Positions 6,658 through 35,063 of a DNA stretch of 36,244 bases are shown in pieces. A model generated the notes under the pieces. The model was not told where the DNA came from. It saw nothing but the letters and a program-made list of their open reading frames with translations, and made no database searches. The stretch comes from Bryobacteraceae bacterium (lineage in GTDB: Bacteria > Acidobacteriota > Terriglobia > Bryobacterales > Bryobacteraceae): positions 1 to 36,244 of the forward strand of contig JASHSS010000005.1 of NCBI GenBank assembly GCA_030038565.1, given 5' to 3'. Made by a program: the position numbers and the translations under genes. How positions within the stretch are numbered: the first letter of the stretch is position 1; each line of letters starts with the position of its first letter.

Positions 6658-6885
6658 ATGGATGTCACGCAAATTTTGGCGGAACTGAAGGAAGAACGAC
6701 AACAAATCGAAGAAGCCATTGTGAGCTTGGAGCGGCTGGCGCGGGGCCGTGGGCGCCGCCGGGGCCGCCCGCCTGCCTGGATGTCGCCGGAGTTGCCTGT
6801 GAAACGGCGGGGCCGTCCGCCGGGGAGCAAGAACAAAGTGCCGGTGGAAACGGCCGAAGCCGCTCCCAAGGGCGCCGTCGCATAG
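6658..6885 (+). CDS. Small basic protein with AT-hook-like motifs
   Basis: This is a 75-residue protein. The ATG at 6658 is chosen because GGAGAGGGGCGAG lies just upstream; a longer frame back to 6550 lacks support and would read through AT-rich spacer. Seen: an N-terminal acidic/basic helix suited to a short coiled coil (residues 4-26, ILAELKEERQQIEEAIVSL). Two basic Gly-Arg-Pro motifs follow: GRRRGRPP near 31-38 and KRRGRPPGSKNK near 49-60. The core RGRPP is the AT-hook, a minor-groove DNA-binding element best known from HMG-A-like proteins and found in some bacterial chromatin proteins (family knowledge). This suggests a dimeric DNA-binding protein, possibly nucleoid-associated. It is monocistronic, with an AT-rich leader and a strong terminator after it. 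Function is inferred from motifs only. Confidence 0.75.
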   Translation: MDVTQILAELKEERQQIEEAIVSLERLARGRGRRRGRPPAWMSPELPVKRRGRPPGSKNKVPVETAEAAPKGAVA

Positions 6886-6910
6886 CCCAGAACAGATCGG
6901 AAATTTGCAA

Positions 6911-6946
6911 GGCCGGGCAGTCCCGAGCGGGACGCCCGGCCTTTTT
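6911..6946 (+). terminator. Rho-independent terminator after the AT-hook-like gene
   Basis: GGCCGGGC (6911-6918) pairs with GCCCGGCC (6934-6941), with an inner GTCCCG/CGGGAC extension. The stem is followed at once by TTTTT. It lies 25 bases after the stop codon at 6885. Confidence 0.9.
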
Positions 6947-7268
6947 GCGTTTCTGGGGTCCCGGTTCTGCGAAGGGACCGCGGAGGGGGTCGTTTTTCAG
7001 GGCCGGGGCTGTCGGCAGATGGGAAGGAAGGCGGGAACACTCCTTATTGCGGCCGGGCAGGCCTTCCGCGCCCGCCGCCGTCTCCGGGCGAGGCATCTGC
7101 ACGCCGACCCCTCCCTCCCGTGCCAAGTGGGTGCGAGGCCCATGCGCGTTCCATGGAATTTACCGGCCTTTGAGATTCGCGGTGGATGGCCGTCGGAAGG
7201 GGAGCCGAGCGGGCGGTCGCGGCGGCGGAACTAAGCCTGGCGGGCTACCAGTGGAAAAAAATCGGGAC

Positions 7269-7301
7269 AAAAAAAGCCGGGCGGCTGGAAACCGCCCGGC
7301 T
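7269..7301 (-). terminator. Rho-independent terminator of the OmpA/Ig-repeat gene
   Basis: On the minus strand AGCCGGGCGG (7301-7292) pairs with CCGCCCGGCT (7284-7275), with a short loop. A run of seven T follows (A-run 7269-7275 on the plus strand). It lies about 25 bases after the stop of the minus-strand gene. Confidence 0.9.
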
Positions 7302-7324
7302 CTCAGTGCGCGACTAAACGGCCG

Positions 7325-10054
7325 TCACCTGACGAACACCGATATGGTGGCGCTTACGGTTTGTCCTCCTGCTCCGTAGGCGGTCAGAGTGTAGGTCGAG
7401 TTGGTGATCGGGGTCACCGTGAAGGTGCCGTTGACCGGCAACGTCTGGGTGCCCAGTTCGGCGCCGATCAGGATGACCTGAGTGGCGTTCAGGGTGGTCC
7501 AGGCGAGGACCGAGGGGGCGCCGGCGGCAGTCGTGGTCGGCGGGCTGGCGGTGAACGAGGTGATCTGCACCGTGCCGACAAAGACTGTCGTGTTGGCCTG
7601 GATCTGTCCCGCCGAATTCGTGGCGGTCAGGGTGTAGGTAGTGGTCGTGCTCGGGCTGACCGTGGCGCAATCGTTGCTGTTCAAATTGCTTCCGACGGTC
7701 GGCTGGATGGAGATGGACGTGGCGTTATTGACCTGCCAGCACAGCTTGGTGGAAGTGCCCGGCTGGATGGTCTGCGGGTTGGCCACAAACACCACGACTT
7801 GCGGGATCTGGCCGGTGGAGACGGTCACGGTAACCGGATCGGTGACCGATTGGCCGGCGGAGTTGGTGGCCGTCAGGACGTAAGTGGTGGTCTGAGTCGG
7901 CGATACGGTGACGCTGCCGTTGGGCTGCACGCTGCCCACGCCGTTATTGATGCTGACGGTGGTGGCGTTGTTGGTGGCCCAGCTCAAGGTGGAATTCTGG
8001 CCCGGAGCGATGGTTACCGGATTGGCTTCGAAGCGCACGATCTGCGGAGAGTTGGCGGTTACCGCGGACACCGTTACGGTGGTGGTGGCGTTGATGGAGC
8101 CGCCGGGGCCGGTAGCCGTCAGAGTGTAGGTGGTGGTCTGAGTGGGCGTTACCGAAGTGGAGCCGGACTGGGCATTGACCGCGCCCGGGCCCGGGCTGAT
8201 GGTAACGTTGGTGGCATTCTGCACGACCCACGTCAGAGTCGAGGCTTGGCCGGCAGCGATGCTGGCGGGATTGGCGGTGAACTGAATGATATTGACCTGT
8301 CCCGGCGCCACTGTGCTGACTTCCGTAGTAGCGGTGGCGCGCAGGCCGTCGGTGTTGACAACGGTCAGGCGGAAGGCGTAGTTCTGGCCGGCCGCCGCGG
8401 TGAAGGTGGCCACGGCCTGATTGGCGTTGGTGATGGTAACGGCGGGGCCGAGGACCTGCACCCAGCTATAAGTCAACGATTCGCCCAGCGGGTCGTAAGA
8501 GCCCGAACCGTTCAGGGTGACCGTTCCAGCGGGAATGCCGAGCTGGTTCGGTCCGGCGTCGGCGATGGGCGGGCTGGATCCCACCTTGCGGGTGGCGAAT
8601 TCGTAGCGGATGCGCGGCACATCCATAGGCACGGGAGTGGTGACCTTGGTGTAATCCTTGGGCGCGATGAAGGTGCCGGCCTGGAGACCGACGGTGAACT
8701 GGCCGCTGCCGTGCGCCTGGAGGTAAGTTTCGTTCCACCCGGCTTCGGCGGTGAAGGCCACGTGCGGCGAGAGGGGCTGAATCAGCTTGATGTCCGCGCC
8801 GATATGCTGGCTGGAAGGACCTTGATAGGTGCGCAGCCAACCGACATTGCCCTGGATGTAAGCGTTACCCCAGGTGGCGAAGAGGAAGTTGGCGCCATAT
8901 TGATTGACCAGGCGGGCGATGGTTTGCAGATAAGCTCCGGGAGCCAGGGTCATGCTGTTGACAACGCCGATATCCTTGAATCCCTGGGTGCCGAACAGAC
9001 CGATGCGGCCGCCGCTGAAGAGGTAATCCAACATGAAGGCTGCTTCACCCAGCCCGGCGCCGCCCTGATACTGCTTAAAGTCGAGGTACTTGAAGCTGCC
9101 AAAGGCGCCGGCCTGCACGTTACCCCAGCGGTTTACCAGACCTATATCGAACTGACCCTCGACGCTTCCGGGGTAGTACATCATTTCGCCCTGGGCCTGC
9201 ACGGCGTGGGTGCCATCGCCGCCGAAGGGGGAGAAGAACTGGCCGCGGCCGCTGGCGGTGAAATCGCCGGTGCGTCCGGCTCCAAAAGCGGGTCCGATAT
9301 CGAGGCCGACGATGGAGAATTTCTTATTGCGCCGCTGGGCCTCGTCGAGCGCGCCCTGGGCCTCGGTATGGGCGATATTCTGAGTCTGCTGCTCGGAGAG
9401 CGGCTTGGGCAGCGCGGCCACCTGATCCTTGAGCATGTTGTGCTGGTTGCGGAGGTCGTCGAGATCGGCGCGCAGTTTGTCGTTGTCGCCCTGTAGATTC
9501 TTCAATGCGGCCAGGATGTCGTCCAGTTTATCGAGGCGTTTCAGAATCTGCTCGCAACAGTCTTCCTGTTTCTTCATGAAGTCCTGGAGCATGGGCAAGA
9601 TGTCGCTGATGCCGCCTTCTTTGATCAGCTTGCCCTGGCCATCGGTAACCGCCAGAATCACGCGGCGGTTCATGAAGCGGCCTTCCTTAGTCCGATTGTC
9701 TACTTCGGGGCTGGCCTTGCCGTTTCCGGCGGTCGAGATCTGGTCGGGTGATGCTCCGTAGTGCACCAGAAAATCTTTCACCGCGTTGGCACGCGCAAGC
9801 GCCAGTTTGTCGTTGTAAGCCGCCGAGCCGACGTAGTCGGTGTTGCCGGTCACTTTCACGTGGTAGTCTCTGTGCTGGCTCAACAGGTCTGCCAGGCGCA
9901 GGAGGCTGGGATAGCCATCGGAGAGAATCGAAGAATTGAACTCGAAATTGATCTCTTCCCAGTCGTCCTTGGTTTGGCCGCCAGTGCTCAACCCCTGCGA
10001 ATACAAGCAGGAGGCCATCAGCCCAAGCGTGCCGATCACCGCTAGTTTTCTCAT
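7325..10054 (-). CDS. Large envelope protein: OmpA peptidoglycan-binding domain, coiled coil, barrel-like region, PKD and four Ig-like repeats
   Basis: This is a 909-residue exported protein. Residues 1-20 are a signal peptide; the sequence LMASC at 12-16 leaves open a lipoprotein. Residues 33-137 are an OmpA-type peptidoglycan-binding domain (GNTDYVGSAAYN at 70-81, R88, MNRRV at 128-132). Residues 155-245 are charged and suited to a coiled coil. Residues 246-480 look like alternating beta-strands, possibly a barrel or porin-like region (inference). A PKD-like domain follows (PPIADAGPNQ at 495-504, SYDP at 519-522). Then come four Ig-like repeats of about 80 residues (about 586-664, 670-746, 751-827, 828-908), each carrying a T-T-T-Y-T/V-L-T-A strand. 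AGGAGA lies 10 bases before the ATG. The gene is monocistronic with its own terminator. It probably anchors the cell wall to a surface or adhesive structure. Confidence 0.85.
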   Translation of the reverse strand: MRKLAVIGTLGLMASCLYSQGLSTGGQTKDDWEEINFEFNSSILSDGYPSLLRLADLLSQHRDYHVKVTGNTDYVGSAAYNDKLALARANAVKDFLVHYGASPDQISTAGNGKASPEVDNRTKEGRFMNRRVILAVTDGQGKLIKEGGISDILPMLQDFMKKQEDCCEQILKRLDKLDDILAALKNLQGDNDKLRADLDDLRNQHNMLKDQVAALPKPLSEQQTQNIAHTEAQGALDEAQRRNKKFSIVGLDIGPAFGAGRTGDFTASGRGQFFSPFGGDGTHAVQAQGEMMYYPGSVEGQFDIGLVNRWGNVQAGAFGSFKYLDFKQYQGGAGLGEAAFMLDYLFSGGRIGLFGTQGFKDIGVVNSMTLAPGAYLQTIARLVNQYGANFLFATWGNAYIQGNVGWLRTYQGPSSQHIGADIKLIQPLSPHVAFTAEAGWNETYLQAHGSGQFTVGLQAGTFIAPKDYTKVTTPVPMDVPRIRYEFATRKVGSSPPIADAGPNQLGIPAGTVTLNGSGSYDPLGESLTYSWVQVLGPAVTITNANQAVATFTAAAGQNYAFRLTVVNTDGLRATATTEVSTVAPGQVNIIQFTANPASIAAGQASTLTWVVQNATNVTISPGPGAVNAQSGSTSVTPTQTTTYTLTATGPGGSINATTTVTVSAVTANSPQIVRFEANPVTIAPGQNSTLSWATNNATTVSINNGVGSVQPNGSVTVSPTQTTTYVLTATNSAGQSVTDPVTVTVSTGQIPQVVVFVANPQTIQPGTSTKLCWQVNNATSISIQPTVGSNLNSNDCATVSPSTTTTYTLTATNSAGQIQANTTVFVGTVQITSFTASPPTTTAAGAPSVLAWTTLNATQVILIGAELGTQTLPVNGTFTVTPITNSTYTLTAYGAGGQTVSATISVFVR

Positions 10055-10333
10055 CTTTTCTTTATCTCCTCAACTCGGTCAACATGTACACGAGACCCAC
10101 AATCACATCGGAACCCTGCCTGAACCGCTGTCGGGCCCGCGGTTCTAACCAGGTTTCCACTAGCGTGCCGGGAAGCGAGCTTTCCGGTCGGGGGCATTTC
10201 TCAGCCCCAAAGCGCAACTAGAAACAGGATACACCGGATTATTTCGTTATCTACTACAAATTGCACAGGGTTAGTACGGGCGACCGGTAATTGACCGTAC
10301 AGTTTTCGGGCGAGAGTGCGACAATAATCAAGT

Positions 10334-10687
10334 GAACTGCCGGACGGGCAGTCGCTTCCCGAGAGGGAAGAGGAAAGTCCGGTCTCCACAGGGCGGCGTG
10401 CCGGCTAACGGCCGGGGTCCGGGTAACCAGGACACGGAAAGTGCCACAGAAAAAAAACCGCCCCGGAAACGGGGTAAGGGTGAAAAGGTGCGGTAAGAGC
10501 GCACCGCGCCGGAAGTAATTCCGGCGGCAGGGCAAACCCCACGCGGAGCAAGACCAAATAGGGGAGGAGGGGCGGCCCGCCCCGCCAGACTTCCGGGTAG
10601 GTCGCTGGAGCCGGATAGTAATATCCGGCCAAGAGGAATGACTGCCACCCGCAAGGGGACAGAAACCGGCTTATAGTCCGGCAGTTC
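10334..10687 (+). ncRNA. rnpB: RNase P RNA (bacterial type A)
   Basis: This is the catalytic RNA of ribonuclease P, which trims the 5' leader of tRNA precursors. Seen: the closing helix P1, with GAACTGCCGG at the 5' end pairing with CCGGCAGTTC at the 3' end. The conserved core GAGGAAAGTCCGG lies near 10370. Further conserved blocks are GTAAGAGCGCACCG, GGCAAACCCC followed by GGAGCAAGACCAAATAG, and AGAAACCGGCTTATAG near the 3' end. Length is about 354 nt, normal for type A. A -10-like AATAAT at 10323-10328 is correctly placed about ten bases upstream of the 5' end, but no convincing -35 element goes with it. Ends are set from the P1 helix and may be off by a few bases. Confidence 0.96.
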
Positions 10688-10962
10688 GCAGCATCAAGTA
10701 GCGGTCGGCCCGCGGGCGGCTGCGCCGGAGTTCCCGGCAGTTCCGCGGTGCGCACAGGCTTGACCGGAAGTTACAGGACGGTCAGAAATACGAGCCGGGG
10801 TCCAGGGGGTTTACCGGGGTGGCAGAGATGCAGCTTAAGTTCAGGTGTTTTCCGGAGTAAGCTGCCGGCGGGTGCGGAACTCAAATAACGCCGCTTGTGA
10901 ACGGGCGAGGCGCCTGGTGGCGGCCGGCTTGCGGCTCTCTTCCGCGTGATAAGCTCTTGCCT

Positions 10963-12606
10963 ATGGTCCGACTCCTGCTTGTTCTGGCTGTGTCGCTGGC
11001 CTGCCGCGCCCAGACCGATTTCCAACCGGTGGAAGGCGATTGGGTGGCCCACGATTTTGTCTTCAAGTCCGGCGAAAAACTGGCCGAAGTGAGGTTGCAC
11101 TACACGACCCTGGGGAAGCCGGAACGGGATGCCGCGGGGCGGGTACGCAACGCCGTCCTGATCATGCACGGCACGGGAGGCAACGGGCGGGCATTTCTCA
11201 GCCCCGCCTTTGCCGGCGAGTTATTCGGGAAGGACCAGCCGCTGGATGCCGGCCGCTTCTACATCATCCTGCCGGACGCCCTGGGCAACGGGAAATCCAG
11301 CAAGCCTTCCGACGGGCTGCGCGCGAAGTTCCCGCATTACCGCTATGACGACATGGTGCGGGCCCAGTACCTGCTGGTTCACGAGGGCCTGAACGTGGAT
11401 CATCTGCGCCTGGTGATGGGGACCTCGATGGGGGCCATGCACACCTGGATGTGGGGCGAGATGTATCCGGATTTCATGGATGCGCTGATGCCCCTGGCGA
11501 GCGCTCCGGTGGAGATTGCGGGACGCAACCGCATGTTCCGGGCCATGATTATTCAGGCCATCCGCGGGGATCCGGATTGGAAGAACGGCGACTACACGAC
11601 TCCGCCGGTGAACGGGCTGATCGCGGCGCAGTATGCGCTGTGGATGATGACCAGCAGCCCGCTGCAACTGCAGAAGGCCAATCCCACGCATGAGAAGGCG
11701 GACGCGGCGGTGGCGGCGCTGCGGCAGAGAGCGGTGCGGACGGACGCCAACGACATGCTGTACTACTTCGAGGCATCCACGGACTACAATCCGTCGCCGG
11801 ACCTGGAAAAGATCCGAGCGCCGCTGTATGCCATCAACTCGGCCGACGACGAGGTGAATCCACCGGAACTGGGGATCCTGGAGCGGGAGATCAAGCGCGT
11901 GCCGCGGGGGCGCTATATTCTGATCCCCACCAGCGACCAGACGCGCGGCCACGGGACGCACTCGCGCCCGGCGGTGTGGAAGAACTACCTGATTGATCTG
12001 TTGCGGATTTCCGAGCCGCGCGCCGCGCTGCTGGACCTGCACGATGCGGTCTGGGCGGAGGCGGCGCCGCGGGTGTTCCAGGTGAAGGTGGCGACCACGC
12101 AGGGGAATTTCAGCATTCGGGCGCATCGCGACTGGGCGCCCATCGGGGTGGATCGTTTCTACAACCTGGCGCGGGCGGGCTTTTTCGACGATTCGCGGTT
12201 CTTTCGCACGGTGGCCGGCTACATCGCGCAATTCGGCATTCCGGGGCAGCCGCGCGTGGCGTCGGTGTGGCGCAACCAGAGCATGCCGGACGACCCGCCG
12301 CACGGCGACAACACGCGCGGCGTGGTGGCGTATGCCATGACCGGTCCGGGCGCGCGCACGACGCAGCTCTACATCAACCTGAAGGACAACTCCGCGCGGC
12401 TGGCCGGGCAAGGCTTCGCGCCCATCGGCGAAGTGGTGGAAGGCATGGAGGTGGTAGACCGGCTGTACAGCGGGTACGGCGAAAATTCGGGCGGCGGCAT
12501 GCGGGCAGGGAAGCAGGCCAGGATGTTCGAGAGCGGCAACGCCTGGCTGGATGCCGGGTTTCCCAAACTGGACCGGCTGCTGTGGGCGGGGGTTGAGGGG
12601 ATGTAG
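10963..12606 (+). CDS. Secreted fusion: MetX-like alpha/beta hydrolase joined to a cyclophilin-type peptidyl-prolyl isomerase
   Basis: This 547-residue single frame starts at ATG 10963, which places a signal peptide (LLLVLAVSLACRAQ) at the N-terminus; a longer frame from 10897 would bury it. Residues 25-355 are an alpha/beta hydrolase resembling homoserine O-acetyltransferases: oxyanion region HGTGGNG at 69-75, nucleophile elbow GTSMGAMH with S155, acid at D295/D296 and H330 in RGHGTHS. Residues 369-505 are a cyclophilin domain: VATTQGNF, FFRTVAGYIAQFG at 413-425, QLYINLKDN at 468-476, and GEVVEGMEVVDRL. The arginine and glutamine of the cyclophilin active site are kept (R415, Q423), while two aromatic positions are tyrosine. 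The signal peptide implies periplasmic action, so methionine synthesis is unlikely. The gene lies between rnpB and an ALDH7 gene. Confidence 0.87.
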   Translation: MVRLLLVLAVSLACRAQTDFQPVEGDWVAHDFVFKSGEKLAEVRLHYTTLGKPERDAAGRVRNAVLIMHGTGGNGRAFLSPAFAGELFGKDQPLDAGRFYIILPDALGNGKSSKPSDGLRAKFPHYRYDDMVRAQYLLVHEGLNVDHLRLVMGTSMGAMHTWMWGEMYPDFMDALMPLASAPVEIAGRNRMFRAMIIQAIRGDPDWKNGDYTTPPVNGLIAAQYALWMMTSSPLQLQKANPTHEKADAAVAALRQRAVRTDANDMLYYFEASTDYNPSPDLEKIRAPLYAINSADDEVNPPELGILEREIKRVPRGRYILIPTSDQTRGHGTHSRPAVWKNYLIDLLRISEPRAALLDLHDAVWAEAAPRVFQVKVATTQGNFSIRAHRDWAPIGVDRFYNLARAGFFDDSRFFRTVAGYIAQFGIPGQPRVASVWRNQSMPDDPPHGDNTRGVVAYAMTGPGARTTQLYINLKDNSARLAGQGFAPIGEVVEGMEVVDRLYSGYGENSGGGMRAGKQARMFESGNAWLDAGFPKLDRLLWAGVEGM

Positions 12607-12658
12607 CCCGTGGGACGCGGGCGATGACGCGGCGCGGCGCGCCCGATAAAATAGGAAA

Positions 12659-14188
12659 GTGCCCACCACCGCTGATTCGATTTCTGAACTCCTTGAAAGC
12701 CTGCACATTGAACCGTTGAACTCCGGCGCGGGTTACGGCGACTGGATCGCGGCGCCGGGCGGCGAGGAAATGGAGTCGCTGAACCCCGCCACCAACGAAC
12801 CGCTGGCCAAAGTCCGGATGGCGGGACTGGACGATTACGAGCAAGTCATGGCGCACGCCTGCGAGGCGTTCACGGAATGGCGCATGGTGCCGGCCCCCGA
12901 ACGCGGCGCGCTGGTGCGCGAAATCGGCGACGAACTGCGCGCGCACAAAGCCGCGCTGGGCGCTCTGGTGACGCTGGAAATGGGCAAGATCCGGGCCGAG
13001 GGGCTGGGCGAAGTGCAGGAGATGATCGACATCGCCGATTTCGCCGTGGGGCTCTCGCGGCAGCTTTACGGACTGACCATGCACAGCGAGCGGCCGGGGC
13101 ACCGCATGTACGAACAGTGGCATCCGCTGGGCGTGGTGGGGGTGATCAGCGCCTTCAATTTCCCGGTGGCGGTGTGGTCGTGGAACGCCCTGATTGCGGC
13201 GGTGTGCGGCGATTGCGTGCTGTGGAGGCCCTCCTCGGAGACGCCGCTCACGGCCATCGCGGTGTCCAAGATCTGCAACCGGGTGACGGAGCGGCACGGG
13301 CTGAAGGGCATCTTCAACCTGGTGATTGGCCCCAGCCGCACGGTGGGGGAAGCGCTGATCCACGACCGGCGCATTCCGCTGGTGAGCTTCACCGGATCGA
13401 CCGAGGTGGGCCGGCACGTATCGAAGGCGGTGGCGGGGCGGCTGGGGCGCAGCATTCTGGAACTCGGCGGGAACAACGGCATCATCGCCATGGACGATGC
13501 CAACCTGGACCTGGTGCTGCGCGCGGTGCTGTTCGGCGCGGTGGGGACGGCCGGCCAGCGGTGCACCACCACGCGGCGGCTGTTTATGCAGCGCGGCATC
13601 GCGGCGCGGGTAACCGAAGCCCTGGTGAACGCGTACCGGCAGGTGAAGATCGGCGATCCCATGGAAGAGGGTACCCTGATGGGGCCGCTGGTGAACCACC
13701 GGGCGGTGGAAGACATGCTGGTGGGCATGCGGCGCATCCGCGAGCAGGGTGGCGAGGTTCTGTTCGGCGGGGAGAGAATCATGGGCAATTACGTGCAGCC
13801 CACGCTGGTGCGGGCGCAGCCGGAGATGCCGATCCTGAAAGAGGAGATTTTCGCGCCAATTCTGTACCTGGTGGAATTCGACGATCTGGACCAGGCGATT
13901 CACTGGCACAACGGCGTGCCGCAGGGGCTGTCCTCAGCCATATTCACGGGGAGCCTGATCGCGGCCGAAACTTTCCTGAGCCACCGGGGCAGCGACTGCG
14001 GGATTGCCAATGTCAACATCGGCACCAGCGGCGCGGAGATCGGCGGCGCCTTCGGTGGCGAAAAAGATACCGGAGGCGGCCGCGAATCGGGCAGCGACGC
14101 GTGGAAGGCCTACATGCGGCGCCAGACCAACACCATCAACTGGTCGGCGCAGTTGCCGCTGGCGCAGGGAATCCGGTTCCAGATGTGA
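12659..14188 (+). CDS. Aldehyde dehydrogenase, ALDH7 (alpha-aminoadipate semialdehyde dehydrogenase) type
   Basis: This is a 509-residue NAD(P)-dependent aldehyde dehydrogenase. Seen: the catalytic cysteine C302 in [14 protein letters not shown], general base E268 in LELGGNN, N167 in SAFNFPV, and the cofactor loop FTGSTEVG at 244-251. The sequences [10 protein letters not shown] and ELGGNN are typical of the ALDH7/antiquitin group. That group oxidises alpha-aminoadipate semialdehyde (or its cyclic piperideine form) to alpha-aminoadipate in lysine breakdown (family knowledge). The assumed start is GTG at 12659, but its Shine-Dalgarno spacing is poor, so the true start may lie slightly downstream. 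It follows the hydrolase-cyclophilin gene by 52 bases on the same strand. No other lysine-catabolic gene is visible, so the physiological substrate is uncertain. Confidence 0.92.
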
Positions 14189-14218
14189 GGCGGGGCGGGC
14201 GGCTCCGTCCGGGGCCGG

Positions 14219-14626
14219 CTAACGCTCGAGGATCTCCTTCAACTTATTCAGTTCGGTATCGAGCTCCCTGGACGCGGCGTCAAAGGCCTGGACATCCATA
14301 ACGGGCGGTTGAAAAAACGTCATCATGAAGGTGGCGCCGCCGCCGTTCGGAATCACCCGCGCCGGAACTGTCCAGGATGCCTGAGGGTCCTTCCACACGT
14401 GATCGAGAAGGCCCCAGGGCTGGCCGGCGAGGATTTTCAATTGGCCTCTTCCCTGGCGTGTCTCGGTCTCGTACCATTCGCCGGTTCCAGGTTTGACCGA
14501 CTTCAGATTGACGACTGCCCAGGAGGGCCAATTCAGCGGATCGCGGAGGAACTCAAAGGCGCGCTCCGGACTTACCTGCAAATCGACCCACCTGGTGATC
14601 GAGCGGCTGATCTTATGCGCGTGCAT
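14219..14626 (-). CDS. SRPBCC/START-like small ligand-binding protein
   Basis: This is a 135-residue protein with the pattern of the SRPBCC (polyketide cyclase/dehydrase, CoxG-like) fold. Seen: an N-terminal strand with [17 protein letters not shown], where bacterial SRPBCC proteins have their first strand and helix. [12 protein letters not shown] follows, and the C-terminal helix (residues 115-134) is long and charged. Members form a hydrophobic cavity for lipids or other small molecules, but function varies widely. No catalytic residues can be assigned. Its ATG lies three bases after the lepA stop codon, and its ribosome binding region is inside the purine-rich last codons of lepA, so translation is probably coupled. 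It ends just 30 bases from the convergent ALDH gene. Confidence 0.75.
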
Positions 14627-14629
14627 GGG

Positions 14630-16441
14630 TCACTCTTCTTCTTCCTGCCCCACTTTGAGGACCGCCAGAAACGCCTCCTGGGGAATTTCCACGCGGCCCA
14701 CGCGCTTCATGCGCTTCTTGCCTTCCTTCTGCTTTTCGAGGAGCTTGCGCTTGCGGGTGATGTCGCCGCCGTAGCACTTGGCCAGCACGTTTTTGCGCAG
14801 CGCTGAGATGGTCTCGCGGGCCACGATCTTGTTTCCGATGGCCGCCTGCAAGGCCACCTCGAACATCTGCCGGGGGATCAGGCGGCGCAGGCGCGAGATG
14901 AGTTCCTTGCCGCGCTCGTAGGCGAAATCGCGGTGCACGATCATGGAAAGCGCATCCACCGGGTCGCCGGCCACCAGTACGTCGAGGCGCACCATGGGGG
15001 AGACGCGATAGCCTGCGAAATGATAGTCCAGAGAGGCGTAGCCGCGCGACGAAGATTTCAGGCGGTCGTAGAAATCCAGGACGATTTCATTCAGCGGCAA
15101 TTCGTAGGTGAGCAGCACGCGGCCGCCGCCTAAATACTCGAATTTCTTCTGGGCGCCGCGCTTCTCCTCCAGCAGCTTCAGGATCCCGCCGAGGTACTCT
15201 TCGCGAGTAATCACGGTGGCGTCGATGATGGGCTCCTCGATCTGCCTGATCTCGCTCGGGTCGGGGAACTTCGTGGGGTTGTCTACTTCCAGCACCTGGC
15301 CATCGGTGGTGGTGACGCGGTAGCGCACGCCCGGCGCGGTGGTGATCAGGTCGATATCGAATTCGCGTTCCAGGCGCTCCTGGACGATTTCCAGGTGGAG
15401 CAGGCCGAGGAAGCCGCAGCGGAAGCCGAAACCGAGGGCCACGGAATTCTCCGGCTCGAAGCTGAAGGCGCTGTCGTTGAGGCGCAGTTTCTCCAGGGCG
15501 TCGCGCAGCAGGCCGTGCTCGTGGGATTCCACCGGGTAGAGGCCGGCGAAGACCATGGGCTTGATTTCCTCGAAGCCGGGCAGCGCTTCCGCGGCGGGGT
15601 TTTCGTGATCGACGATGGTGTCTCCGATCTTGGCGTCGGAAACGGTCTTGATATTGGCGAAGAGGAAACCCACCTCGCCGGCCGAAAGCTCATCGCACGG
15701 AATGGCCTTGGGCGACTGGTAGCCAAGCTCTTCCACTTCGAATACCTGGCCGTTGGACCAGAGGCGGATCTTCTGCCCGCGGCGCAGCCGGCCGTCGAAC
15801 ACGCGCATCAGGATGATCACGCCGCGATAGGGATCGAACCAGGAGTCGAAGATCAGCGCGCGCAGGGGCGCTTCCGACGAGCCGCGGGGCGGCGGCACGA
15901 GGAGCACGATGTGCTCCAGGATTTCGTGCACCCCGGTGCCCTGTTTGGCGCTGGCCAGGACTGCGTCGCGAGCGTCCAGGCCGATGATGGTTTCGATCTG
16001 CTCGCGGATGCGTTCCGGCTCCGCGGCGGGCAGGTCGATTTTGTTAATGACCGGAATGATTTCGAGATTATGATGCAGGGCCAGGTAGGTGTTGGCGAGG
16101 GTCTGGGCCTCCACGCCCTGGGAAGCGTCCACCACCAGCAGGGCTCCTTCGCAGGCCTGAAGGCTGCGGGAGACCTCGTAGGAGAAATCCACGTGGCCGG
16201 GCGTGTCGATGAGGTTTAATTGATAGGTCTGGCCATCGTCGGCGCGGTAATTGAGACGCACGGCGTGGGCTTTGATGGTGATGCCGCGCTCGCGCTCCAG
16301 GTCCATGGAATCGAGCACCTGGTCCATCATTTCGCGCGCGGAAAGCGCGCCGGTGGCTTCCAGCAACCGGTCGGCCAGGGTGGATTTACCGTGGTCGATG
16401 TGCGCAATGATAGAAAAATTGCGTATGAATTCGCGGTCCAT
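14630..16441 (-). CDS. lepA: Elongation factor 4 (LepA), ribosome-associated GTPase
   Basis: This is a 603-residue translational GTPase that acts on the ribosome and can promote back-translocation or assist under stress. Seen: the G1 motif AHIDHGKST at 13-21, G3 DTPGHVDF, G4 NKID, the LepA-specific [13 protein letters not shown] motif in the middle, and the C-terminal domain rich in Lys/Arg ([20 protein letters not shown], ending in a [13 protein letters not shown] segment). The ATG at 16441 gives the standard N-terminus [16 protein letters not shown] and the usual length of about 600. The frame is open to 16597, but the extra residues have no match to the family. It is followed by a coupled SRPBCC gene and divergent from the PBP gene. 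The C-terminus is acidic (GQEEEE). Confidence 0.97.
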
Positions 16442-29377: not shown

Positions 29378-31015
29378 CTATTCGATGGCCGGTCCGAAGT
29401 AGCCCTGCGCCAGGGCCGGTTCGGATTCCAGGGCCTTGGTCCAGCAGGAACGCGCTTCGTCGCTCTTGCCGTTGGCTTCCAGAATCCGTCCCAGGTTCAG
29501 CAGCGCTTCGGGCATCTCCGGCTGCAGGGCCAGGGCGTCGCGGTAGAGCTTGAGGGCCTTGTCGAACTGGTTGGCCTTCTCATACAGCAGGCCGGCGTTG
29601 TAGAACACCTCGGGAGTGCGCTCGCCCAGGTCGATCAGGCGCACGTGCAATTCCAGGGCGGCTTCGCTGTCGGAGGCCTGAATGGCCAGCGACGCCAGGC
29701 CGCGCAGGGCGTCCAGGCACTTGGGATCGGCGTCCAGCATCTTCTCGTAGAGCCGCTCGGCCATCCCGCGCTCGCCCAGCCCGGAGTAGGCCAGCGCGAG
29801 GTTGGCTTGCGCATCGGGCCATTGCGGGCGGTATTTCAGGCAGGCTTCGAAGGCCTCCACAGCGCCTCGGAAATCCTGGCGGTGCAGCCGCAGGTACCCC
29901 AGGCGGAAGCGGGCCTCTTCCTCCTTGGGGGCGTGCTCCAATACGGTCTTGTACCAACGCTCGGCCTCTTCGGTCTGGCCGGAGTGTTCCAGCAGCAGGG
30001 CCATGTTCCAGAGCGGCGCCAGGGCATCGGGGTTGGCCTGAATGGCGCGCTCGTACGCTGTGCGGGCGCCTTTCCAATCGCCGGTCTGCTCGCGTACGAT
30101 GCCCAGGTTGGTAAAGGCTTCCGCGGATTGCGGGCGCAACTTGATGGTTTCCTCGTAAGCTTCCGCGGCCTGCTCCCAGCGGGCCGATTTCTGGTGCGCC
30201 AGGGCCAGGTTGAACCAGCCCTCGAAATGGGTCGGAACGGCGGAGACCAGCAGGGTGCAGAACTTGGCCGTCATGGCGTGCTCGCCGGCGGCCGAGGCCC
30301 ACGCGGCCAGGCCTTCGAGCGCCACGGTGGATTCGGGGCGCAGGTCGAGCAGCCGCTCGGAGTACTCCCGCACCATGTCGAAATCCTGCCGGGCCATCCC
30401 GATCAGCACCAGGTTCGAGAGGGATTCCTCGGATTCCGGATTGTGCGACAGAATGCGCTCGTACAGGCTGCTGGCCTCGTCGGGATGACCGAGAGACTGG
30501 AGCGCGGCGGCCTTGCCGAAGAGCGCGTCTTCGTGCTCGGGCGCCAGTTCCAGGCAGCGCTCGAAGGACACCAGCGCGGTTTTGGGGTCTTCCAGACGCA
30601 GGTTGCAGACGCCCTGGCCGAGGTGCGCCTCGACGTGCTTGGGGTCGAGGGTGGAGGCCTTGCGGAAGGCCTCAGCGGCGTCGTCCCAGGCGCTCAGCCG
30701 TTCCAGGCAGACCGCCAGGTTGAACCAGCCCATGGCGTATTGCGGTTTGAGCTGGGTAAGGGTGCGGTAAGTGCGGCCGGCCTCCTTATAATCCCCCATC
30801 TCGAATTGGATGTGCGCCATGGCGCGGTAAATCTCCGCCGAGGCGTCGCCTCCGGCCACCGCGCGCTGCAGTTGCTTGAGGGCCTCCTCGCGTTTTCCGG
30901 CCAGGTGCAAAGCGACGGCGCGCGCCAGGTAGCCGGCGCCGGAACCCCTTTCACCTTCGGCTTCGGCCGGACGAAGCGTCTGGACTTTGGATACTTTGAT
31001 AGCTGTGGTGCTCAT
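29378..31015 (-). CDS. Tetratricopeptide-repeat protein
   Basis: This is a 545-residue protein made almost wholly of TPR units, about a dozen 34-residue helix pairs from residue 30 to the end. Typical signs are A-x-x-x-Y/F-x-x-A and the P at unit ends. Examples are the segments AWDDAAEAFRKASTLDPK, WEQAAEAYEETIKLRPQS and FDKALKLYRDALALQPEM. No signal peptide or membrane span is seen, so it is probably cytoplasmic. The start is ATG 31015, which overlaps the stop of the upstream gene in an ATGA, with GGAG twelve bases before it. TPR proteins assemble complexes; the partner may be the product of the upstream coupled gene (inference). No enzymatic domain is present. Confidence 0.93.
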   Translation of the reverse strand: MSTTAIKVSKVQTLRPAEAEGERGSGAGYLARAVALHLAGKREEALKQLQRAVAGGDASAEIYRAMAHIQFEMGDYKEAGRTYRTLTQLKPQYAMGWFNLAVCLERLSAWDDAAEAFRKASTLDPKHVEAHLGQGVCNLRLEDPKTALVSFERCLELAPEHEDALFGKAAALQSLGHPDEASSLYERILSHNPESEESLSNLVLIGMARQDFDMVREYSERLLDLRPESTVALEGLAAWASAAGEHAMTAKFCTLLVSAVPTHFEGWFNLALAHQKSARWEQAAEAYEETIKLRPQSAEAFTNLGIVREQTGDWKGARTAYERAIQANPDALAPLWNMALLLEHSGQTEEAERWYKTVLEHAPKEEEARFRLGYLRLHRQDFRGAVEAFEACLKYRPQWPDAQANLALAYSGLGERGMAERLYEKMLDADPKCLDALRGLASLAIQASDSEAALELHVRLIDLGERTPEVFYNAGLLYEKANQFDKALKLYRDALALQPEMPEALLNLGRILEANGKSDEARSCWTKALESEPALAQGYFGPAIE

Positions 31016-32718
31016 GTGCGTGGGAACTCCTTGGCCGGGCCGGGATAAAACCGGACCCAGTAGATGCGCGCGCGGTCTTCCGGCGCGCCGATAAATCCGA
31101 CCCCGCCGGAGGAAAACCGGCTGTCTGTCCAAGACTCGATCAGTTGCCCGTCGATCGAGAGCGAGAATTGATTTCCCGCGATACGCATGCGGATCAGGTA
31201 AGCGCTCTTGGGATTGGGTAGAATGCTGAGCGGCGCGGTGTAGGCGGCGCCGGGCTTGCCGCGCCACACGGTGCGGCGGGTGAAGGCGTAGCCCTTCCCG
31301 GGCAAGGCGGTCAAGGCGGCCATGTAATAGTCGTTCAAGCCGGCCGCGCGGTACACCCAGGTGAGGCTGTGATTCTCGATGCGGGTGAAGAACTCCAACT
31401 CGTAATCGCGCCATTCGAGCGAAGGGGTGAAGAGCGCCAGGGATCCCGTGCGGGCTCCGGCGGCGTCCACGGTCCAACTGGCATAGCCGCCGGTCCAGTT
31501 CTTCCAACCGGCATCGAAGCGCTCTTCGAAGCTGCTGCGGCTTTCGGGCGGTGCGCCGGGGCGTGAATCGACGCCGTCGGCCACGCAGCCGATGGGTACC
31601 GCGGCGGAGCGCGGGGCGGGCGGGTCTCCGGCGGGCCGGGCAAGGTGCAGTCGGAGCCGAGCCCGGTCGCGGCCGCCATGGCGGATGGGCGGCGGGACGG
31701 CGGCAACCGGGACGGCGCGCATCTCGCCGTGCCAACGCAATTCCAGTTTGGGTCCGCGGAAGGGAAGCGGTCCCGCGACCGGGCCTTCCCGGTCCTCTTG
31801 CGGGCAGGGGGGAAGCAGACCGGGCCACTCCATGCGCGTCCGGAGCTCGGCCCACTCCAAGGCGCGAATACCGGGCGCCTTCACCGCGAAGGCCGCCGCG
31901 CGGGCCACGCGTGGAGAGGGCTGCCCAGCGGGCGGCTGGTTCTCCACCGGCATCTCGTGGCGCTCGCGCGGCACCTGCGGCGCGGGCGGCTCGAACTTGA
32001 GTCCGCGCAACCGGGTACTTTGGATGCGAAAGCCGGCGCCCAGGGAGACGCGCAAACTGTAACCGGGGGGCGGAGCGGGATTGGCGGGGCGGCAGCCGCG
32101 CGGGTGGCTGAAGGCGTGAAAGTATGCCGGAGTCACGCGCCGGGGATCCAGGTGCGGCCCGGGCGTTCCATTCCAGCGGATCGCGGAATCGCGCGCCAGG
32201 CCGACGCCGTCTGCGAGCGCGCCGCGGCTTCTTCCGCGGCAAGGTACCGCCCCGGCGGCCACAATGTGCACTGACTGGCGCGTGCGGTGGGAGTGAATCA
32301 CGGGGGACGTGCGCGGCAGGAGGCGCGGCGCCTCGGCCGCGTGGCGCGCCCGGACGGTCTGCGGCGCGCGTGCGGCCGAGCCGTCCAAAAAACCGGTTTC
32401 GGCAGCCACCAGCAGCGGGCGCGTGGCGCCGGAACGCTGCCAGACTCCCGGCAGCAGAGGCGCGTCCGCAAGGCGGGCGATTTGCGGGTCGAAAAAGCCG
32501 CGCCGCGGAATGCCGGTCTCGTCGAGGTCGCGGAACGGGGAAAGCGCTTTGGGACTCTCCCGCCGCCGCATCAGGCTGGCGACTTTATTGGCCTCCAGCA
32601 GGCGGTCCATGCCGGCACGCAAACGGTACTGGTTGCGGTGTTCGCGCGAGCAAAAGTCCTCGCCCGCGCCCAGCCAGATGCGGCTGAGCGGTTTGTCGCA
32701 CAGCTTGCACGTCCTCAT
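31012..32718 (-). CDS. Zinc-finger protein with LamG/DUF1080-like C-terminal domain
   Basis: This 568-residue protein is of unknown function. Residues 1-35 carry a small treble-clef or TRASH-like finger: CKLC (C4, C7), then DFCSREH with C23 and H27 (from ATG 32718; a TTG four codons earlier is possible). Residues 40-370 are Pro/Arg/Ala rich with few recognisable features. The C-terminal part (about 375-565) looks like the concanavalin-type jelly-roll of LamG/DUF1080 proteins: FEERFDAGWKNWTGG, YELEFFTRIENHSLTWVYRA, FSLSIDGQLIESW and GGVGFIGAPED. Such domains often bind or hydrolyse carbohydrates. No signal peptide or membrane segment is seen, which is unusual for that fold. It is translationally coupled to the TPR gene by a 4-base overlap and divergent from the TonB-type gene. 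Confidence 0.8.
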   Translation of the reverse strand: MRTCKLCDKPLSRIWLGAGEDFCSREHRNQYRLRAGMDRLLEANKVASLMRRRESPKALSPFRDLDETGIPRRGFFDPQIARLADAPLLPGVWQRSGATRPLLVAAETGFLDGSAARAPQTVRARHAAEAPRLLPRTSPVIHSHRTRQSVHIVAAGAVPCRGRSRGALADGVGLARDSAIRWNGTPGPHLDPRRVTPAYFHAFSHPRGCRPANPAPPPGYSLRVSLGAGFRIQSTRLRGLKFEPPAPQVPRERHEMPVENQPPAGQPSPRVARAAAFAVKAPGIRALEWAELRTRMEWPGLLPPCPQEDREGPVAGPLPFRGPKLELRWHGEMRAVPVAAVPPPIRHGGRDRARLRLHLARPAGDPPAPRSAAVPIGCVADGVDSRPGAPPESRSSFEERFDAGWKNWTGGYASWTVDAAGARTGSLALFTPSLEWRDYELEFFTRIENHSLTWVYRAAGLNDYYMAALTALPGKGYAFTRRTVWRGKPGAAYTAPLSILPNPKSAYLIRMRIAGNQFSLSIDGQLIESWTDSRFSSGGVGFIGAPEDRARIYWVRFYPGPAKEFPRT

Positions 32719-32730
32719 GCCTGCGCACAA

Positions 32731-32933
32731 TTATAGGAAATATGGAACGTAAAATACTAGCATAAATGCCGCTAACTAACGCCTGCTATCCAAAGTTAAT
32801 ATCCCGACAACACTAACGTTATCTATGCTGTACCGAGGATAAAAAACTCTTGCTAATTTTGGATAACCAACCCTACAAATCCAGTGAATTTGGCGAAATA
32901 TTCGCGTAAAATAAACCGTGACGGAGGACCACG
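32731..32933. promoter_or_regulatory. AT-rich divergent promoter region
   Basis: The 200 bases between the divergent finger gene and the TonB-type gene are sharply AT-rich compared with the flanks. GGAGG at 32923-32927 serves ATG 32934. A -10-like TAAAAT lies near 32907-32912, and AACGTT palindromes occur further up. No well-spaced -35 was found, so exact promoters are uncertain. Confidence 0.45.
32893..32905. promoter_or_regulatory. Short palindrome, possible operator
   Basis: GCGAA-ATA-TTCGC is a perfect 5-3-5 inverted repeat about 30 bases upstream of the TonB-type start codon, directly before the TAAAAT element. Its position is suitable for repression, but no binding factor is known. Confidence 0.35.
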
Positions 32934-35063
32934 ATGATTGATTCGGCGGCGCGCGCAGAGCGTTACGATCCGGCGCCTTCCATTTCGCCGTGCTACACCT
33001 GGGAAGTTCCCGAAAAGCCAGTCCTGGTGCGGCTACCCCTGGTACTAATCGACCGGCTGGAACGTGAGGCCGTGGAGAACTTCCGTTCGGTGAGCTCCCG
33101 TGGCTCGGAAATCGGCGGCGTCCTGTGGGGAGCCGTAGAGCCGGGCCAACCCACCGCGCTGGCGGTGGTGGAGTATGAACTGGTGCCGTGCGATTATACG
33201 CTGGGGCCGTTATACCGGTTGACGGAGGAGGATCTGGCGCGCCTGGACAAGACCCTGGCACAGCGCGGCGGCTCGGGACTACGCCCGGTAGGCTTCTTCC
33301 GCAGCCACACGCGCAAAGGCCTCTCGCTCGATCCGGACGACGTGACGCTGATGGACTCGCGCTTCCAGGAGCCGCACCAGGTGGCGCTGGTGATCCGTCC
33401 GTATGCCACCAAGGCCAGCACGGCGGGAATCTTCATCCGCGAAAACGGCGCCATTCACGCCGAGGCCAGCTACCTGGAATTCCCGTTCCGCTCGGGGCAA
33501 CTGGCGTCCACCAAGCACCTGGCGGAGGCTGTTGAACCGGCGGCGAATTTGTCCGCCGCCCCGCCCGCGGCCCGCCCGGCAGTGCGGGCACAGATCGTGC
33601 CGATCGCCTCGCGGCGCGATATTGCCGCGGTGCCGCCCCTGGCCACCGAATCGCTGCCCGCTCCGGCGCCGCAGCCCGTGGCGCAGCCGGTTCCCCAGCC
33701 GGTGGCGCAAGCGATGCCGCAGCCGGTCCCGCAACCGGTTCCTCAACCCGTGGCGCAACCGGTTCCTCAACCGGCAACAGAGACGCCGGCGCAGCCGATT
33801 CCGCAGCCGGTGGCGGCAGTGGTGGCGCAGCCCTCCGCGCCGGCCGCCGCGCAAGTTCGCGAAACCACGCCCGCGGTGGAACCGCCGGTTTCGGTGACCG
33901 GCAAAGACAGCATGCAGGACACCGCCGAGCAGACCGACGCGGCGGAGCCTGCGCCGGCTCGCGCCAAGGGCAGCAGCAAGCTGATGTGGATTGCCGTGGG
34001 GGCGATTTTCCCGTTGTTGCTGAGCGGCGCCCTGGTCTATTCGGGGGTCTTCCGCCATGCCACGCTGCCGGGCGGGATCTCGGGACAGGACTCCTCGCCG
34101 CTGGCGTTGCGCGTGGAGCGCACCGGCAGCGAGTTGCTGCTGACCTGGAATAACGATGCCAATGTCATCCGCAACGCCACCCGCGCAGTACTGTCGATCT
34201 CCGATGGCGACCAGCACGAGAACGTGGAAATGGACCTGGCCCAGCTTCGCAACGGCAGAATCGAATATCTGCCGGTGACTGGCGACGTGGTGTTCCGCAT
34301 GGAGGTGTCGGGGAAGGGCAACACCAAGACGGACAGCGAATCGGTACGGGTATTGCGCACGCGGCCTTCGCCCATGCCGACGGATTCGCAAACCCAGGCC
34401 GGGCAAAATCCGGCCGGCAAATCTCCCGCGCCCAACACCGCGCCGAATGCCTCCGCGGCGGCCAATACGCCCGGCGTCAACACGCCCGGCGCCAATCCGG
34501 CCGGGCAAAATCCGGCCGCGCCCAACGCGGCTCCCGGCGACATCGCAGCGGGGGCGCAGCCTGGAGCGCCGACGACCCCACCAACGCCGTTGAAGCAGTT
34601 CAACACAGCCTCGCTTTCCGGGCGGCTGCGCCCGGTGCGCCCCGACGACATCTCGCTGCCCGACGCTCCCACGGTGGGCGGCGCCGGTGTGGCGGCGACC
34701 CCCGCGGCCCTCGGGCTGACAGCCATTACGCCCCCGGCGCCGCCGCCGACGCGCGACGCGGCTCCCCCAAAGCAGGCAGCCATGCCGACGGGCGGGGACG
34801 TCCAGCAGGCCCAGTTGATCTACCGCAAGAATCCCGAATACCCGGCCCTGGCTCGCAGCGCCGGAGCGAAGGGAACCGTGGAACTGGTCGCCACCATCGG
34901 GACCAATGGAAGGGTCAAGACGGTGAAGGTGACCAAGGGCCACCCGCTGCTGCAAAAAGCCGCCGTGGACGCGGTCAAGCAATGGCAGTATCGGCCCACC
35001 ATCCTGAACGGCCACCCGGTGGAAACCGAGACCACCATTACTCTGAACTTCATCGACCGGTAA
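32934..35063 (+). CDS. JAB/MPN-like domain fused to a TonB-type energy-transducer C-terminus
   Basis: This is a 709-residue membrane protein. Residues 28-180 resemble a JAB1/MPN fold: EIGGVLWG at 59-66 (E59), GFFRSH at 120-125, LSLDPDDVTLMD at 130-141, VALVIRP and AGIFIRENG. The metalloprotease form would have H-x-H; here it is R123-S-H125, and the spacing to S131 is short, so catalysis is doubtful. Residues 245-300 hold PQPV/AQPV repeats. A membrane helix lies at 350-371. The periplasmic part has a beta-rich domain (390-475), an Asn/Pro/Ala linker (485-560) and a TonB C-terminal domain (630-708, with YPALARSAGAKGTVEL and WQYRPTILNG). Ordinary TonB proteins have only a short cytoplasmic tail. 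GGAGG lies six bases before the ATG. No exbB/exbD is nearby. Confidence 0.88.
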   Translation: MIDSAARAERYDPAPSISPCYTWEVPEKPVLVRLPLVLIDRLEREAVENFRSVSSRGSEIGGVLWGAVEPGQPTALAVVEYELVPCDYTLGPLYRLTEEDLARLDKTLAQRGGSGLRPVGFFRSHTRKGLSLDPDDVTLMDSRFQEPHQVALVIRPYATKASTAGIFIRENGAIHAEASYLEFPFRSGQLASTKHLAEAVEPAANLSAAPPAARPAVRAQIVPIASRRDIAAVPPLATESLPAPAPQPVAQPVPQPVAQAMPQPVPQPVPQPVAQPVPQPATETPAQPIPQPVAAVVAQPSAPAAAQVRETTPAVEPPVSVTGKDSMQDTAEQTDAAEPAPARAKGSSKLMWIAVGAIFPLLLSGALVYSGVFRHATLPGGISGQDSSPLALRVERTGSELLLTWNNDANVIRNATRAVLSISDGDQHENVEMDLAQLRNGRIEYLPVTGDVVFRMEVSGKGNTKTDSESVRVLRTRPSPMPTDSQTQAGQNPAGKSPAPNTAPNASAAANTPGVNTPGANPAGQNPAAPNAAPGDIAAGAQPGAPTTPPTPLKQFNTASLSGRLRPVRPDDISLPDAPTVGGAGVAATPAALGLTAITPPAPPPTRDAAPPKQAAMPTGGDVQQAQLIYRKNPEYPALARSAGAKGTVELVATIGTNGRVKTVKVTKGHPLLQKAAVDAVKQWQYRPTILNGHPVETETTITLNFIDR

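Follow-up and report, generated by a model that had tools for sequence, protein, structure and literature searches.

A TonB-tailed MPN-domain protein of Bryobacteraceae with an altered JAMM motif: a candidate inside-to-outside adaptor

Known designs and the architecture of the fused protein

Known MPN domains act either as proteases in the cytosol or as scaffolds within proteasome-like complexes, and in the eukaryotic MPN-minus subunits Rpn8, CSN6 and Abraxas the zinc-less domain is kept as a scaffold. The protein described here is encoded in a window of 36,244 nucleotides (the whole stretch of DNA that was analysed) from a member of Bryobacteraceae. It shares with these subunits an MPN fold that appears to have lost its zinc site, but differs from them in that an Arg is fixed in its family at the position of the first His, and in that the domain is fused to a transmembrane (TM) helix, a fibronectin-III-like (Fn3-like) domain and a TonB C-terminal domain (TonB_C); in addition, nothing pointed to a proteasome or signalosome in the present case. 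Cap3 and BilC, bacterial JAB proteases of ubiquitin-like systems, also have the MPN fold, and Cap3 was among the Foldseek matches of the present domain. However, the window protein lacks the JAMM motif, no E1, E2 or ubiquitin-like genes were seen near its gene, and a PADLOC search for anti-phage defence systems gave no match to it. Because of the latter result, a link with anti-phage defence was dropped.

With regard to overall layout, GltG of the gliding machinery of Myxococcus xanthus carries an FHA domain at residues 26-90 and a TonB domain at residues 570-637, and a contact with the motor subunit AglR has been both proposed for it and tested (PMC3169522). GltG (PglI) and GltJ (AgmX) resemble the window protein in having a cytosolic binding domain, one TM helix and a long periplasmic part that ends in a TonB-like domain. 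They differ in that the window protein has an MPN domain instead of FHA and an extra Fn3-like domain, and comes from another lineage, Bryobacteraceae. By analogy of domain order (FHA-TM-TonB_C), GltG appears to be the closest known design; no AglRQS-type motor or glt genes were recognised among the genes read near the fused loci. TonB energy transducers share TonB_C, the inner-membrane helix and a Pro-rich linker with the window protein, whereas the latter has a 350-residue N-terminal part including the MPN domain and the extra Fn3-like domain, and lacks both the SxxxH motif and exbBD neighbours. A literature search for TonB joined to Mov34/MPN, judged on titles and abstracts, found no such fusion.

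The domains and residues of the fused protein and its neighbouring genes are listed in Table 1. The ATG of the 709-aa open reading frame (ORF) is supported by the N-terminal tail, since relatives keep the sequence [ST]xARAER. A hydropathy scan gave a single membrane helix in the whole protein, and the TonB_C domain matched PF03544 at 73.1 bits against a cut-off of 24.6. The Pro-Gln repeat region, the one membrane helix and the TonB C-terminus described in an earlier note on this DNA were thus all recovered. The beta-rich domain of that note proved to be a fibronectin-III-like sandwich: its model was confident (pLDDT 91.2), and the Foldseek matches, weak in E-value (8e-4 to 4e-3) but consistent, were mostly to fibronectin-III domains and monobodies, while a Pfam search of this domain gave no match above chance.

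Table 1. Coordinates of the fused gene, its domains, its JAMM-position residues and its divergent neighbours in the window
Feature	Position	Strand	Basis or remark
F2, TPR protein, 545 aa, no TM	29378..31015	-	Conserved neighbour; 4-base overlap with F3
F3, zinc-ribbon-like N-terminus, variable middle, jelly-roll C-terminus, no TM	31012..32718	-	Conserved divergent neighbour
Intergenic gap between F3 and the fused gene, 215 bases	32719..32933	.	Gene layout
TonB-fused MPN gene, 709-aa ORF	32934..35063	+	Order MPN - Pro/Gln linker - TM - Fn3-like - Pro/Ala/Asn linker - TonB_C
N-terminal tail, residues 1-22 (MIDSAARAER...), conserved	32934..32999	+	Also in relatives; mean pairwise identity 0.59 in the TonB-fused clade
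MPN (JAB) domain, residues 23-190	33000..33503	+	Alignment, profile search, AlphaFold2 model, Foldseek
E59, catalytic Glu position	33108..33110	+	Invariant in the Arg clade
R123, in place of the first zinc His	33300..33302	+	Arg in all 53 of 53 sequences of the clade
H125, second metal His position	33306..33308	+	Varies in relatives (H, N, Q, T)
D133, in place of the JAMM Ser	33330..33332	+	Asp in all TonB-fused sequences of the motif alignment
D136, third metal ligand position	33339..33341	+	Invariant in the Arg clade
Pro/Gln-rich linker, residues 191-345	33504..33968	+	Poorly conserved: identity 0.37, dN/dS 0.23-0.60
Transmembrane helix, residues 350-368	33981..34037	+	Hydropathy scan
Fibronectin-III-like domain, residues 387-474	34092..34355	+	Model and Foldseek
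Pro/Ala/Asn-rich linker, residues 475-630	34356..34823	+	Alignment of the TonB-fused clade
TonB_C domain, residues 633-706	34830..35051	+	PF03544 match

The MPN fold and the altered JAMM motif

When the window protein was searched alone against Pfam and NCBIfam at their own cut-offs, the MPN domain was not detected (11.3 bits for PF01398, below the cut-off of 22.5), and its detection required family profiles. When relatives were searched for with residues 21-190, every one of the 24 Bryobacteraceae sampled had a match, and PF01398 matched 30 of 37 relatives at E<=1, with a best value of 1.5e-9. A profile built from 37 sequences and searched against the PDB matched Caldiarchaeum Rpn11 (2.8e-11) and CSN5 (~1e-7), followed by Rpn11, AMSH and Rpn8; the E-values for the Rpn11-like, CSN5 and AMSH chains ranged from 2.8e-11 to ~1e-5. 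The AlphaFold2 model of residues 21-190 had a pLDDT of 92.6 and a pTM of 0.90, and all 50 of the Foldseek matches listed for it were MPN/JAMM proteins or complexes holding one, with modest TM-scores of 0.45-0.57. On the basis of the predicted structure, the N-terminal domain is an MPN fold. The JAB/MPN landmarks pointed out in the earlier note are therefore real, and the structure prediction and profile search that it had proposed gave no indication of an unrelated fold.

In JAMM proteases, a Glu residue bonds the zinc-bound water. The zinc is held by His and Asp residues (PMC300881). The alignment of relatives spans everything from a perfect JAMM motif to the form seen in the window protein. 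The canonical paralogue in the same genome, on contig C831, reads AEIGG ... HSHTRSEIFLSDVD, with an intact E...HSH...S..D, whereas the window protein reads SEIGG ... RSHTRKGLSLDPDD. The pattern H-x-H-x7-S-x2-D is absent from the latter and is represented by R-S-H-x7-D-x2-D, the positions E59, R123, H125, D133 and D136 being assigned by alignment. The Arg at the first metal His reported in the earlier note was confirmed as R123, but it is not the only residue changed, because the Ser is also replaced, by D133. The Ser position varies across the Arg clade and is Asp in the TonB-fused members. As read from these motifs, the zinc site of the Arg-type MPN domain is lost, so that zinc-dependent cleavage should not occur. 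We infer that the Arg side chain may occupy the place of the metal between the Glu and the Asp.

The MPN domain is the best-conserved part of the TonB-fused protein (identity 0.68), and its dN/dS in five pairs was 0.09-0.20, compared with 0.22-0.60 in the linkers. This conservation indicates that the domain is retained for a purpose other than zinc catalysis, and the simplest role for a strongly selected domain that has apparently lost its metal site is that of a binding module. Binding is therefore the likelier role of the Arg-type MPN domain than cleavage, and the same preference in the earlier note is upheld by the apparent loss of the metal site within a conserved MPN fold. A different reading makes the MPN domain a passive relic or folding cap, and TonB_C a generic periplasmic domain of a type frequent in this genome. 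The genome indeed has 27 TonB_C matches, and several of these lie in proteins built differently; an M56-like protein, for example, has two copies. However, we consider this reading very unlikely, given the strong purifying selection on the MPN domain and the unvarying Arg123, Glu59 and Asp136 in 53 sequences. The M56/BlaR1-like protein with two TonB_C domains comes next in the contig C831 run that holds the canonical paralogue and the GAF and YCF48-like genes (L057, G000:C831, 1-5270).

Distribution of the family and its gene neighbourhoods

Bryobacteraceae are abundant, hard-to-culture soil bacteria, and a membrane-anchored MPN family is present in almost every genome: at E 1e-5 it was found in 231 of 237 genomes and in 75 of 76 genera. 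Across 396 genomes drawn from the whole phylum, the Arg-type profile gave five matches at 1e-15, three of which were in Bryobacteraceae, and the wider MPN family was almost absent from the rest of Acidobacteriota. The named relatives were metagenome-assembled genomes of Bryobacteraceae/Solibacteraceae, Candidatus Solibacter and Sulfopaludibacter. A search for plasmid relatives of the window protein found none.

A tree of 73 MPN domains separated a canonical clade, which includes some decayed members, from an Arg clade (split 100/100). The TonB-fused members fell within the Arg clade, where 17 of them, including the window protein, formed a group supported at 100/99. Most Arg-type members and the canonical members read have the order MPN-linker-TM-Fn3 without TonB_C, and this layout is commoner than the full fusion. 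Judging from these layouts, the conserved core of the family is MPN-TM-Fn3, with TonB_C as an optional part, and in one clade an apparently dead MPN domain is joined to a domain whose place of action is the outer membrane. The intact JAMM, Arg-type and TonB-fused Arg-type proteins form a natural series that would show a protease becoming a binding module. The full fusion, with the MPN, Fn3-like and TonB_C domains in one ORF, was found by local gene calls in 19 genes, which come from at least 11 different genera of Bryobacteraceae. The survey proposed in the earlier note thus shows a conserved fusion, and the two parts are not always encoded by separate genes. The 19 include a degenerate second copy (MPN - TM - Fn3 - TonB_C) from the genome of the window itself (contig C794; L058, 14516-16051), whose MPN motif has decayed. 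In two further genomes, divergent MPN - TonB_C proteins for which an Fn3 domain was not observed (L032, G022:C232, read by eye; L067, G006:C85) possibly represent a second origin of the fusion.

The two clades raise the question of pairing. The Arg-type MPN domain could dimerise with the canonical JAMM paralogue encoded in its own genome, in the manner of Rpn8-Rpn11, in which case the fused protein would place an active isopeptidase at the membrane. Both clades have the TM-Fn3 design, and under a strict threshold (1e-42) a canonical paralogue was present in 18 of the 19 TonB-fused genomes, compared with 48 of 100 Arg-type genomes without TonB_C; the Fisher p value for this co-occurrence, 9e-5, ignores the relatedness of the genomes. 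However, at the same threshold the canonical paralogue was absent from 53 of 119 Arg-type genomes, and 22 genomes had the canonical type only, which suggests that pairing is not obligate; moreover, the two genes were not adjacent in the loci read. Pairing is thus rather unlikely as an explanation of the fusion, and the idea of an obligate active/inactive MPN pair is weakened by the 53 Arg-type-only genomes. Still more speculative, and in our estimate improbable, is a membrane MPN pair of an active JAMM isopeptidase and a dead TonB-tailed subunit, in which the recognition or processing of cytosolic conjugates or peptide tails would be mechanically linked to the outer membrane.

In close TonB-fused loci, the fused gene is divergent from F3, which is followed by F2, and the gap between the fused gene and F3 is presumed to be a promoter region common to the divergent genes. 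Among 25 named loci (identity >=56%; one of them, L165, with only part of the domain), F2 was found beside the fused gene in 25 and F3 in 21, with one more F3 at a looser threshold. F3 orthologues, scored at >=225 bits, occurred in exactly 18 of 170 genomes, the next best score being 158 bits. All 18 genomes carry the fused gene or a copy cut at a contig end, the fusion being judged from open-frame length alone in a few of them (G180, G240). Since the F2/F3 synteny was seen in related genera, co-inheritance accounts for part of it. No confident domain was found in F3 by Pfam; its jelly-roll had a weak match of the 3-keto-disaccharide-hydrolase type, and this C-terminal part, which Pfam does not match with confidence, belongs to a large Bryobacteraceae domain family that is present in 120 of 170 genomes.

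The other branches of the family have neighbours of their own. Arg-type genes without TonB_C were divergent from rsmI in eight loci (L046, L047, L049, L051, L052, L056, L078 and L079). In L056 and L079 among these, and also in L055, two signal-peptidase-like genes were observed downstream. Canonical JAMM genes were divergent from GAF and YCF48-like genes in five loci. The canonical gene of the window genome (L057), which is cut by the end of contig C831, is likewise divergent from GAF and YCF48-like genes. In another family of the same order, a relative (L074, G032:C10) encodes a membrane protein that carries two canonical MPN domains in tandem. Its gene lies in a run at 6825-16347 which, read by eye, comprises a ThiF-type E1, a YukD/ubiquitin-like protein, an E2-like protein, the tandem-MPN protein, a VWA protein that weakly matches prokaryotic RING, and a CpaF-like ATPase.

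A possible role at the envelope

On balance, we lean towards regarding the fused protein as a trans-envelope adaptor with a non-catalytic MPN recognition or docking domain in the cytosol; it looks like an undescribed inside-to-outside adaptor of Bryobacteraceae. As a hypothesis, the earlier note's proposal that an internal module is coupled to the outer membrane is a reasonable one. The single helix would serve as an inner-membrane anchor with the Fn3-like domain just outside, and the following linker of ~155 residues would be long enough for TonB_C to get to the outer membrane and bind a partner there through strand addition, the usual mode of binding of TonB_C domains. We infer the cytosolic side of the MPN domain, its non-catalytic binding role, its clients and the outer-membrane contact: with a single helix, TonB_C outside demands that the MPN domain be cytosolic. 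The positive-inside charge bias flanking the helix is weak, and the orientation therefore rests on domain logic. A cytosolic MPN domain would have cytosolic clients, and F2 and the zinc-ribbon/jelly-roll protein F3, which are encoded divergently and have no membrane helices, are the obvious candidates if they are cytosolic. Because most relatives have no TonB_C, the ancestral function had no need of the outer membrane. Such an adaptor would be a testable protein for the passing of cytosolic recognition across the Gram-negative envelope, beyond the classical Ton and Tol systems.

An energised TonB, on which ExbBD or TolQR exerts force with the MPN domain as a cytosolic switch, would account for the same layout. 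The TonB_C score lies far above its cut-off, exbBD and tolQR genes are present in the window genome, and the motor contact proposed for GltG would be in line with such a role. However, a PF01618 search gave zero matches on the window contig and five elsewhere in the genome, so that exbB is not on the window contig, and S-x3-H is absent from the helix in 19 of 19 fused proteins. SxxxH belongs to the SHLS motif, the site of contact between TonB or TolA and the respective motor (PMC12215075). We consider energisation quite unlikely, and the adaptor remains the preferred reading. The absence of SxxxH does not separate the two, and was set aside as a test of energisation, because the genome's own TonB beside exbB (L175, G000:C261, 386-1962) also lacks the motif. 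The TolA encoded in a tolQRA-like run of the same genome (L174, G000:C406, 756-2705) keeps it.
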